Source: Deltaproteobacteria bacterium (GTDB lineage Bacteria > CG2-30-53-67). Taken from it: a stretch of DNA of 8,026 bases. The notes beneath the pieces were generated by a model. The model was not told the DNA's origin. It saw only the letters and a program-made list of their open reading frames with translations, and made no database searches. The stretch lies in contig JAADIO010000003.1 in NCBI GenBank assembly GCA_013151235.1, positions 1 through 8,026 on the forward strand, read 5' to 3'. Every line of letters begins with the position of its first letter. The first letter of the stretch is position 1. The position numbers and the translations under genes were made by a program. Positions 4,526 through 7,751 of the stretch are shown one piece after another.

Positions 4526-4565
4526 TTTAAAAAAAATTGACAGAACAGCCCCTGTTCACTATAAT
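4526..4565 (+). promoter_or_regulatory. Perfect consensus sigma70 promoter of the tusA-dsrE2-kinase operon
   Basis: TTGACA (4537-4542) and TATAAT (4560-4565) are separated by exactly 17 bases, so both hexamers and the spacing match the consensus in full. An A/T tract (TTTAAAAAAAA, 4526-4536) directly upstream resembles an UP element. Transcription should start at about 4571-4573, roughly 190 bases before the tusA ATG. A promoter this strong is unusual for a sulfur-carrier/sensor operon and makes sense if it is normally repressed; the palindrome in the spacer is the obvious operator. Confidence 0.85.
4543..4557. promoter_or_regulatory. Palindromic operator-like site between -35 and -10
   Basis: GAACAG-CCC-CTGTTC is a perfect inverted repeat with 6-base arms, fitting exactly into the promoter spacer. 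A dimeric protein bound here would block RNA polymerase or, like MerR-type regulators, remodel the promoter; a MerR-type site usually needs a 19-20 bp spacer, so simple repression is more likely. GAAC-N7-GTTC does not match the GAAC-N4-GTTC Bacillus-type LexA box. The regulator is not encoded in the window. Confidence 0.6.
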
Positions 4566-4571
4566 TCCGGA

Positions 4572-4762
4572 TAAATCTTAGATGAATTCCAGTTCCCAAA
4601 GAAGCATAGACTCCGGATTCATTCTGCACCGTAAATGCCACTCTCCCTGCACAGGGATGAGGGGACTTGGCCGCAAGGTTTTCGGAACGGGGTGTTCTCC
4701 ACACCTCAACAAAGAGGTGTGATCACCGGCTCCTGCAGACGGAGCGTTACAGGAGGGAAGGA
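4572..4762 (+). promoter_or_regulatory. Long structured 5' leader of tusA with alternative hairpins
   Basis: The predicted leader is about 190 nt and rich in paired segments. The first is ATGAAT-T-CC (4582-4590) with GGATTCAT (4615-4622), one base bulged. Next come TCCCT (4644-4648) with AGGGA (4653-4657) and CTTG (4666-4669) with CAAG (4674-4677). ACACCTC (4701-4707) can pair either with GGGGTGT (4689-4695) or, as an 8-bp stem, within CACACCTC (4700-4707) and GAGGTGTG (4714-4721). CTCCTG (4730-4735) can pair with CAGGAG (4750-4755), which covers the tusA Shine-Dalgarno. The competing pairing is GCTCC (4729-4733) with GGAGC (4741-4745), which leaves the site free. No U-run follows any stem, so control of translation initiation fits better than termination. 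I do not recognise a known riboswitch class. Pairings are seen; switching is inferred. Confidence 0.5.
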
Positions 4763-4987
4763 ATGGAAATTCTAAAAGAGATCGATGTCACCGGTAAGGT
4801 CTGCCCCGCCCCCCTCATTGCCTTGGCCAAGGAGGTGCGCCATCATGACAAGGGCGCACTCCTTCGGATCAAGGGCGACGACCCTCTCTTTGAAGAATCG
4901 ATCCTCGACTTCTGCGCCGAAGGCGATCACAAAGTCGTCGAAACAAAGCGGGAAGGAAAGCGAATCAGTATCGTCCTGCAAACCTGA
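4763..4987 (+). CDS. tusA: TusA-like sulfur carrier protein (SirA/YedF family)
   Basis: This small cytosolic protein would carry sulfur as a persulfide on its conserved cysteine and hand it to partner proteins, as TusA does in tRNA thiolation, molybdopterin synthesis and dissimilatory sulfur metabolism. It has 74 residues, the usual size. The start motif is followed by DVTGKVCPAPLIALAK, with the CPxP signature at 14-17 and C14 as the acceptor. A second Cys lies in LDFCAEGDH, a common position in the family. The ATG has AGGAGG at 4751-4756, 6 bases upstream. It is the first gene of the operon and is followed after 18 bases by a DsrE2-type gene. The TusA-DsrE2 pairing is known from sulfur-oxidising and sulfur-metabolising prokaryotes. 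No rhodanese gene is present. Which acceptor it serves cannot be told from sequence. Confidence 0.88.
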   Translation: MEILKEIDVTGKVCPAPLIALAKEVRHHDKGALLRIKGDDPLFEESILDFCAEGDHKVVETKREGKRISIVLQT

Positions 4988-5005: not shown

Positions 5006-5548
5006 ATGGAGAAAAACAGGATGGCCAAAAAAGGAACGATCATGGTCGTCAGCGGTGAGCTGGACCGGGTCCACACCGCTTTCCTCATCGCCACGGGATT
5101 TGCCGCCCTCGGCATGGAGATGAAGATGTGGTTTGTCTTCTGGGGACACAACTGCCTGAAGAAGCGGCGGGGACTTTTCACCCGGCGCCGCAGACCCGCT
5201 CCCGCCCGGGAAGGGACCTACCGGAATCTCGATACCGACAATCTCCTCCAACAGGTAGCAGAACTGTTCAACCGCGGCGGTGCCGAGCATCTCCCTCTCT
5301 CTCAACAGAACCTGATGGGCTTAGGCCCTGCCCTCATCCGGAAGATGATGAAAAAAAAGAATATCCCGACCCTGAAGGAACTGATCGCCGATGCCGATGA
5401 TCTGGGAGTGAAGTTTATCCTCTGTCAGATCTGTGTCGATGTCCTTGGCCTGAACATCGATGATTTGATCATCCCTCAGGTAGAGGTCAAGGGGGTCTCA
5501 ACCTACATGCAGGACACAATGGAGGCCCATGTAAACCTCTTTATCTGA
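5006..5548 (+). CDS. DsrE/DsrF/DrsH-like family protein, DsrE2 type
   Basis: The 180-residue protein fits the DsrE2 branch of the DsrE/DsrF/DrsH-like family, which receives or relays persulfide sulfur together with TusA. Seen: a hydrophobic N-terminal segment with IMVVSGELDRVHTAFLIATG (12-31), FVFWGHNCLKK (43-53, like the family's FxFWG block), LPLSQQNLMGLG (96-107), and the key cysteine segment FILCQICVDVLGL (137-149). It ends in VKGVSTYMQD and VNLFI, as in relatives. C140 matches the conserved active cysteine; C143 makes a CxxC where relatives often have Ser or Met. A basic loop with five arginines near 56-67 follows the hydrophobic part; membrane association is possible but not clear. The ATG follows AGGGAG (4994-4999) by 6 bases. 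An ATG at 5021 is possible but lacks a site. It lies 18 bases after tusA and 28 before the kinase gene. Confidence 0.85.
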   Translation: MEKNRMAKKGTIMVVSGELDRVHTAFLIATGFAALGMEMKMWFVFWGHNCLKKRRGLFTRRRRPAPAREGTYRNLDTDNLLQQVAELFNRGGAEHLPLSQQNLMGLGPALIRKMMKKKNIPTLKELIADADDLGVKFILCQICVDVLGLNIDDLIIPQVEVKGVSTYMQDTMEAHVNLFI

Positions 5549-5576: not shown

Positions 5577-7751
5577 ATGAACCGGAAAAGCAAAGACCAA
5601 TTAGAAGAAATCCTGAGGCTCCGGGAGGAGAACTCCTTTCTTCGGAAGTCGTTGAATGAGACCTCCGGTGGACAGGAGCTTCTCCGGCAGCGAAAGGAAT
5701 TCTCCCAGATTCTCAAGGTCAGCCAGAAGGTCGTCTCCGAGCTGAATCTTCAAAAGGTCCTCAACCTCGTAGCGGAATCAGCCCGGGAGATCATTGAGGC
5801 CGACACCCTGGTTGTTCCCATCCTGAACAAAACACGCGACCACTATATTTACATGGCCGCTGAAGGGGAAGGGGCCGAAGAATTCACAAAGCTGCGATAC
5901 AAGATTCATGTCGGCATGTGCGGATGGGTCCTCCGGAATGAACGTCCCCTTCTCTTCGGAGCACCTTCGGAGTGGTGGATGGAAGAGAAAACCCCATGGG
6001 AAGAAGGACAGCAGTCGGCTCTTTTGGTTCCCCTCTTCGGCCGGGAAGGGATCATCGGCGGACTTTCCGGCCTCGGAAAGCAAGGGGGCGGAAGCTTCAC
6101 CGAACATGACCTTGATCTTCTGACCCTTTTTGCCAACCAGGTCAGCGTCGCGATTGCCAACGCCCATCTCTTTCATGAAAGAGAAGAAATCATCCGGAAT
6201 ATAGAAGAAGAAAAGGAACGGCTGGCCGTCACGCTTCGAAGTATAGGCGACGGAGTTATCACCACGGATACGACGGGGAATGTGGTTTTGATCAATAAAA
6301 TTGCAGAAGAACTTACAGGATGGCATCAGGAAGAAGCAACCGGAAAACCGCTGCAGGAAATTTTTCATATCATCAATGAACAGACACGTATCCCTTGTGC
6401 CGACCCCGTATCAAAAGTATTACAACTTGGAAAGATCTGCGGCCTGGCTAACCACACACTCCTCGTTGCAAAAGACGGGACGGAGCGAATTATCACCGAC
6501 AGTGGAGCGCCGATTCGGGACCGGGACTCGCGTGTGATCGGAGCGATCCTCGTCTTCCGGGATATTACTGAAAAACGGAAGATTGACTCGGAGCTAATGA
6601 AAATGGAAAAGCTCGAATCTTTGGGCGTTTTGGCCGGGGGAATCGCTCACGACTTCAACAATATCCTCGTTGCCATTCTCGGCAATCTCAGTCTCGCAAC
6701 GGAAACTCTCTCTCCCGAGGACAAGCTCTATCCACTGCTTCAACAGGCGGAAAAAGCCTCACTTCGTGCCCAGGCATTGACAAAACAGCTGCTCACTTTC
6801 TCCAAGGGGGGCGCTCCGATCCGGGAACTCGCCTCTATTGCCGAGGTAATCCAGGATTCTTGTGACTTCGCTCTGCGGGGGAAGGGCGTCCGCTGCAATT
6901 ACAAAATCCCGAATACTTTATGGCCTGTGGAAATCGATACAGGACAGATGAGCCAGGTGATTCAGAACCTGATTCTGAATGCCGCTCAAGCCATGCCGGA
7001 TGGGGGAACAATCAATATTGCCGCTGAAAATCTGGCCTTGGGAAATAGTGAAAATCCTTCCCTTCAAGCTTCCCCCTACATCAAGATCCTCATTCAGGAT
7101 AGCGGGAACGGAATCGCACCGGATCAGATCGGCCGGATCTTCGACCCTTATTTTACAACCCGGGAAGATGGGTCCGGCCTGGGCCTGGCCGTAACCCATT
7201 CCATCGTCACTAAACATGACGGTCATATCACAGTCACATCAAAAAAGAATCGGGGAACCACCTTCATCCTCTACCTTCCTGCAGTAACGGAAAAAGTCCC
7301 CCGGCAGAAAAGCAGCCGCTCAAAAACCGTCAACCAGAAGAGAGGACGGATCCTGGTCATGGATGATGAAGAAATCGTACGGGACGTTGCAGCAAAGATG
7401 CTGACCCGTTTCGGATTCGAAGCCGTTCCAACATGTTCCGGAGAGGAAGCCGTCAAGCTCTTTCGGGAGGCTGCCGAGAGAGGAACCCCCTTCGACCTGA
7501 TCCTTGCAGACCTTACCATTCCCGGTGGAATGGGAGGCAAAGCCCTGGCCACCGAGATCCATCGAACCGACCCTGCAGCAAAGATCATTGCCTCCAGCGG
7601 CTATTCCAACGATTTCGTCATGTCTGATTATGAAAAATTCGGATTTTGCGGTGCAGTGGCCAAGCCCTACCGGTTGCAGGAACTTCAGGAGGTCGTTGAC
7701 CGCATCCTGGGGGAAGAACCGGCATCGTCAAGTGATGCTGCAGGAACATGA
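5577..7751 (+). CDS. Hybrid sensor histidine kinase (GAF-PAS-HisKA-HATPase-REC)
   Basis: This 724-residue signalling kinase is predicted soluble: no signal peptide or membrane segment is seen. In order: a short coiled coil (about 7-45), a GAF domain (about 50-200, with VGMCGWVLRNERPLLFG), a linker helix, a PAS domain (about 212-332, SIGDGVITTDTTGNVVLIN to ILVFRDITEKRK), a HisKA domain with GGIAHDFNN and phospho-acceptor H358, and an HATPase domain. The HATPase shows the N-box NLILNAAQAM (464-473), DSGNGI (508-513), IFDPYFTT (521-528) and GSGLGLA (532-538). A C-terminal receiver has acidic MDDEE (595-599), acceptor D645 in ADLTIPG, SS at 673-674 and K696 in AKPY. All catalytic residues look intact. 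There is no DNA-binding or enzymatic output, and no separate response regulator or Hpt gene in the window. The GAF or PAS pocket would sense a small ligand or redox cue. AGGA at 5563-5566 precedes the ATG. Cotranscription with tusA and dsrE2 is likely given the 28-base gap. Confidence 0.95.
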   Translation: MNRKSKDQLEEILRLREENSFLRKSLNETSGGQELLRQRKEFSQILKVSQKVVSELNLQKVLNLVAESAREIIEADTLVVPILNKTRDHYIYMAAEGEGAEEFTKLRYKIHVGMCGWVLRNERPLLFGAPSEWWMEEKTPWEEGQQSALLVPLFGREGIIGGLSGLGKQGGGSFTEHDLDLLTLFANQVSVAIANAHLFHEREEIIRNIEEEKERLAVTLRSIGDGVITTDTTGNVVLINKIAEELTGWHQEEATGKPLQEIFHIINEQTRIPCADPVSKVLQLGKICGLANHTLLVAKDGTERIITDSGAPIRDRDSRVIGAILVFRDITEKRKIDSELMKMEKLESLGVLAGGIAHDFNNILVAILGNLSLATETLSPEDKLYPLLQQAEKASLRAQALTKQLLTFSKGGAPIRELASIAEVIQDSCDFALRGKGVRCNYKIPNTLWPVEIDTGQMSQVIQNLILNAAQAMPDGGTINIAAENLALGNSENPSLQASPYIKILIQDSGNGIAPDQIGRIFDPYFTTREDGSGLGLAVTHSIVTKHDGHITVTSKKNRGTTFILYLPAVTEKVPRQKSSRSKTVNQKRGRILVMDDEEIVRDVAAKMLTRFGFEAVPTCSGEEAVKLFREAAERGTPFDLILADLTIPGGMGGKALATEIHRTDPAAKIIASSGYSNDFVMSDYEKFGFCGAVAKPYRLQELQEVVDRILGEEPASSSDAAGT

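Follow-up and report, generated by a model that had tools for sequence, protein, structure and literature searches.

The window, that is, the whole stretch of 8,026 nucleotides analyzed here, is contig C3 of a 2.62-Mb genome from a Deltaproteobacteria bacterium, the phylum of which is represented by eight genomes in our comparison. Its genes are rpe, on the minus strand, and, transcribed divergently from rpe, tusA, dsrE2, and a GAF/PAS hybrid histidine kinase (Table 1). The tusA operon is preceded by a sigma-70-type promoter with both hexamers in perfect agreement with the consensus, and no second promoter match with three or fewer mismatches was found in the eight genomes of the phylum. Since this promoter ends at position 4565, the transcript is expected to start near 4571, giving a leader of about 190 nt (~4571 to 4762). 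A preliminary description of this DNA had proposed a set of alternative stems in the leader and made its reading depend on a transcript that covers them; as judged from the promoter, all of the listed pairings would lie inside the transcript. No terminator was found on the plus strand of the leader. A 46-codon open frame at 4582-4722 (MNSSSQRSIDSGFILHRKCHSPCTGMRGLGRKVFGTGCSPHLNKEV) was rejected, as its start is found only in the window's genome, the aligned block has no codon pattern, and the frame is not conserved in the relative introduced below. Directly 3' of tusA-dsrE2, at 5577-7751, the hybrid histidine kinase combines GAF and PAS domains with a receiver domain and is a possible signaling partner of the tusA/dsrE2 sulfur-transfer pair. 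At the contig end (7919-8026), repeated GAACCACA-type motifs are probably a dispersed repeat where the assembly broke.

Table 1. Features of the tusA locus in the window and the evidence for each.
Feature	Position	Strand	Evidence or remark
Sigma-70-type promoter TTGACA-17-TATAAT, tusA operon	4537..4565	+	12/12 consensus match
Perfect palindrome GAACAGCCCCTGTTC between -35 and -10	4543..4557		Arms GAAC...GTTC conserved in the relative
Full element copy, ~140 nt, inside the tusA 5' UTR	4615..4755	+	Matched by models R1 and R2, which also find other loci
Three-way junction closed by P1 (CATTCTG 4620-4626/CGGGGTG 4688-4694 and CCG 4629-4631/CGG 4682-4684)	4620..4694	+	MFE of the module alone; homologous P1 in other copies
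P2, long hairpin CCACTC-TCCCT-gcac-AGGGA-t-GAGGGG	4638..4664	+	MFE; P2 at the same place in other copies
P3, hairpin TGGCC-GCAA-GGTTT	4668..4681	+	MFE
P4, GGGGTGT 4689-4695 with ACACCTC 4701-4707	4689..4707	+	Excludes P1 and also the 4700-4721 hairpin
8-bp hairpin CACACCTC-aacaaa-GAGGTGTG	4700..4721	+	13-bp hairpin at the equivalent site in the relative
Anti-SD CTCCTG 4730-4735 with CAGGAG 4750-4755 (holds the SD); rival pair GCTCC 4729-4733/GGAGC 4741-4745	4730..4755	+	
tusA (PF01206)	4763..4987	+	
dsrE2 (PF13686)	5021..5548	+	

The same promoter is found at the tusA locus of the sole other genome of the genus in the comparison, the Dive96_bin10.193 MAG (hereafter the relative; sample Dive96 comes from a vent study on the Southwest Indian Ridge, PMC9769843). 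Both hexamers are identical there, and the palindrome between them retains its GAAC and GTTC arms, while only two of the seven central bases are conserved. This pattern suggests that GAACAGCCCCTGTTC is a candidate operator for a dimeric repressor, and it raises an alternative in which the leader is passive and a repressor of this kind, bound to the GAAC-N7-GTTC spacer dyad, controls the operon at its promoter. The perfect promoter and the retention of the arms but not of the centre fit this alternative. However, the dyad comparison involves two sequences, the full promoter/dyad site occurs once per genome so that no wider regulon is visible, and the element described below is left unexplained together with its other copies. 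We consider a passive leader rather unlikely; repressor control as such is compatible with the reading of the leader that we prefer, and both may hold. Further GAAC-N7-GTTC sites before a -10 were inspected and gave no convincing regulon.

The segments that the preliminary description had named in the leader are all present: ACACCTC, with GGGGTGT upstream and GAGGTGTG (4714-4721) downstream; CTCCTG and the CAGGAG that holds the Shine-Dalgarno (SD) sequence; and GCTCC and GGAGC. The chance level of such pairings was determined from dinucleotide shuffles of the window's leader alone. Of the shuffles, 8% had a 6-nt anti-SD within 30 nt, 48% had a 7-nt segment that could pair, G-U included, with one stretch upstream and another downstream, and 2% had a perfect 8-bp hairpin; the whole-leader fold had a z of -1.36. 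By partition function, CAGGAG is predicted to be paired at a probability of ~0.87, and the CTCCTG/CAGGAG helix to form at ~0.84 per pair. Taken on its own, the window's leader has pairings that are mostly weak versus chance, and what identifies a real feature at this site is comparison, with the homologous leader and with further copies, not the single sequence.

In the relative, the promoter is followed by a leader of ~240 nt and then by tusA-dsrE2. The two leaders aligned with a similarity score of 29 versus 9.4 +/- 1.4 in shuffles, and when the last 45 nt were left out, the score was 17 versus 8.9 +/- 1.4. They are homologous, far beyond chance, and have YUCCUG and CGGAGCGTYACAGGAG in common. 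The consensus fold of the two leaders was not significant (z -1.4); two sequences are insufficient here, and power for a consensus fold comes only from the extra copies. Where the window has its 8-bp hairpin, the relative has a perfect 13-bp hairpin, CAGGAACCGGCGG-TTTT-CCGCCGGTTCCTG (locus L002, 1718-1750), and the 5' arm of this hairpin contains ACAGGAA, which resembles the SD, ACAGGAG. Since ACAGGAA imitates the SD, the anti-SD strand of the relative's leader would have two competing partners; the partition function places the anti-SD in the 13-bp hairpin, with the SD paired to only about one half.

A covariance model built from the two tusA leaders only (R1) was run on 60 genomes and revealed two new full copies in the relative, at 70 bits (E 7e-22) and 55 bits (E 1.5e-16). 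These copies precede hslV (after polA) and namZ (after pckA), and a partial copy at 23.6 bits lies before nadC (after valS); each of the three is in the sense direction. A model made from the four full copies (R2) confirmed the hslV, namZ, and nadC copies. With a third model, comprising the last 55 nt of the element (R3), the eight genomes of the phylum gave exactly six good matches, four in the relative and two in the window's genome: tusA in both genomes, hslV, namZ, the 3' part at nadC, and the 3' part on contig C19 of the window's genome. The C19 copy (C19:41142-41196) is intergenic and 3'-only, with the end of a DUF4912-like gene (a label assigned by eye) on one side and a GH57 gene downstream. 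In the remaining six genomes of the phylum, R3 gave nothing above background. All six copies are oriented with transcription, and four of them end at or beside the start signals of the downstream gene. Identity between copies is only 57-67%. An R1 match in genome G038 (E 0.0016) was rejected because its alignment was unconvincing, and the additional GCGGAGYGTYACRKG matches inspected outside the known copies were chance matches, mostly coding.

The element is previously uncatalogued and low-copy. An Rfam scan at relaxed E-values gave no plausible match for the window, the relative's tusA locus, or loci L051-L053, which bears out the earlier impression that the leader belongs to no known class. 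Plasmid and phage collections contained no element match, pattern scans of IMG/VR returned none or chance coding matches, and the literature searched held nothing like it.

When the 5' module of the window's copy was folded alone, P1, P2, and P3 all formed, and P3 is present in other copies as AAGUC-GUAU-GACUU (hslV) and GGGCC-AUAU-GGCUU (namZ). The consensus fold of the three full copies of the relative, calculated with RNAalifold, had a z of -3.8 against shuffles that keep columns but not dinucleotides. On the same footing, the P1-P3 module of these copies had a z of -3.7 and all four full copies, including the window's, a z of -2.4 (p 0.02). RNAalifold recovered the hand-drawn P1, P3, and 3' hairpin P5 and refined P2. 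Secondary structure is conserved across the copies. The covariation proposed earlier as a check is suggestive only: pair counts on four sequences, in which helix 5 was misdrawn by one pair, showed few both-sided changes and were not above shuffles, while the consensus fold did beat column shuffles. Conservation is loose in the linkers between the helices, and in the window's copy, P1 has two internal mismatches and P5 is largely lost, with three of six pairs left. The 3' strand of P1 has a second partner, forming P4, in three of the four full copies (window, hslV, and namZ); in the hslV and namZ copies the P4 analogue is GUGCGG/CCGCAY beside P1. In the hslV copy, the loop of P5 (CCGCCG/CGGCGG) holds CUCCUG at a distance of 7 nt from CAGGAG, as would be suitable for an H-type pseudoknot. 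Of the six copies, the three whose CAGGAG is intact have a loop or strand complementary to the SD (perfect or with one G-U); the other three have none.

Comparison of the spacers revealed empty sites. In the polA-hslV spacer, the window's genome lacks a 127-nt block that the relative has directly before TGTYACAGGAGGG, and in the valS-nadC spacer it lacks the relative's 52-nt block. In the pckA-namZ spacer, most of the element is missing from the window's genome and GAGCGTTA is kept near the spacer end, so this empty site is less clean than those at hslV and nadC. The hslV site of three family members (G002, G003, and G005) has no recognisable element. From the spacer sequences, the element would have been gained in the relative's line or precisely lost elsewhere; had the window's genome lost it precisely, identical empty sites would result. 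Its apparent gain at, or precise loss from, several loci makes it probable that the element moves or is spread by recombination. The 127-nt insert at hslV does not include the native SD, and since TGTTACAGGAGGG occurs at this site even where the element is absent, the host site itself accounts for some of the shared 3' sequence and of the CAGGAG conservation.

Several known kinds of element share some of these properties. MITEs and other small non-autonomous intergenic elements are also short, non-coding, and structured, with empty orthologous sites and several loci per genome, and the element shows such presence/absence polymorphism cleanly at hslV and nadC and partially at namZ. Unlike MITEs, it has no terminal inverted repeats (best terminal match 5/8) and no target duplication at its two cleanest insertions, hslV and nadC, and its copies are few, diverged, and always sense-oriented. 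REPs are 20-40 bp long, usually present in many copies, and tagged at one end with GTAG or CGTC, and CGTC-REP stems almost always start with AT (PMC3733652). The element resembles the GTAG- and CGTC-tagged REPs in being a GC-rich hairpin between co-directional genes that is probably transcribed, but it is ~140 nt long, has two to four copies per genome (six in the two genomes), and its CGTC/CGTT follows the stem instead of tagging its 5' end. Integron attC sites are likewise structured, 60-140 bp long, and fixed in orientation relative to genes; the core sites GTTRRRY and RYYYAAC were looked for in the element and are absent. A further candidate kind is an element derived from IS200/IS605, which depends on a Y1 transposase in trans, has subterminal hairpins, and makes no target duplication; hairpins are present in the element described here, and no duplication was seen.

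Translational riboswitches that sequester the SD are another such kind. The preliminary description had seen in the leader the layout of a possible translational riboswitch or protein-controlled leader and guessed at a sulfur or thiol ligand. Like these riboswitches, the element is a multi-helix 5' UTR domain with mutually exclusive helices and the SD in the last helix; unlike them, it has no Rfam class and no coherent gene set, its sites are empty in a sister species, and its switching is a predicted one. What stands of the earlier reading is an uncatalogued structured element with a conserved fold and competing helices near the SD. The element is not peculiar to tusA, as it also lies before hslV, namZ, nadC, and the GH57 gene. 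In a broader form of that reading, the element would define a class of riboswitch-like or thermosensing leaders that controls a small regulon (tusA, hslV, namZ, and nadC), in which the junction is the sensor, P1 versus P4 the switch, and the SD hairpin the output. The sense orientation of every copy, the position adjoining a gene start, the conserved junction, the exclusive P1/P4 pairings, and the lack of a match to any known class are all consistent with it, but tusA, hslV, namZ, and nadC share no pathway, and the empty sites, the 3'-only copies without a sensor, the loose linkers, and the P1 mismatches in the window's copy argue against it, and we regard such a class as unlikely. It is highly improbable that tusA-dsrE2 operons have a riboswitch of their own that senses sulfur or thiols. 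Both genomes of the genus do have the element before tusA; however, it also precedes unrelated genes, its sites can be empty, some copies are 3'-only, and when leaders of other tusA-dsrE2 operons were collected, as had been advised, those of Desulfobulbaceae were unrelated and without the element.

Taken together, we consider it fairly probable that the tusA leader is a copy of a ~140-nt, genus-restricted, dispersed structured element that is probably mobile and may mask the ribosome binding site in cis. In the proposed layout, a three-way junction (P1, P2, and P3) comes first, and the GC-rich hairpin region behind it borders on the start region of the downstream gene. The CUCCUG strand of this last module would cover the CAGGAG ribosome binding site, and the competing GCUCC/GGAGC pairs (P5 in other copies), together with a P1/P4 exchange farther upstream, would free it. 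The most likely effect of the element would be on translation, in cis. Counting against this reading are the missing terminal inverted repeats and target duplications, the very low copy number (two and four) with diverged copies, the native SD outside the hslV insert, and the half-paired SD of the relative's tusA leader. We find it distinctly improbable that the element represents a portable family of translational control RNAs, in which a mobile three-way junction inserted in sense beside the SD would subject unrelated genes to a common signal. Should the element be mobile and act on translation, a structured 5'-UTR domain can move before unrelated genes, and this would offer a route for riboswitch-like leaders to arise and spread. 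It also follows that alternative hairpins near an SD need not signify a riboswitch for the downstream gene.

Two further structures were seen at related loci. In a deltaproteobacterial locus (L018, 2485-2625), an inverted-repeat block (CTCTGGCTGATAATGTTTTCGC ... GCGAAAACATTATCCGCCAGGGA) lies just upstream of tusA and is possibly another inserted palindromic element at a tusA locus. At a contig end (L021, 1-551), a near-perfect fold-back upstream of dsrE2 is probably an assembly artefact.
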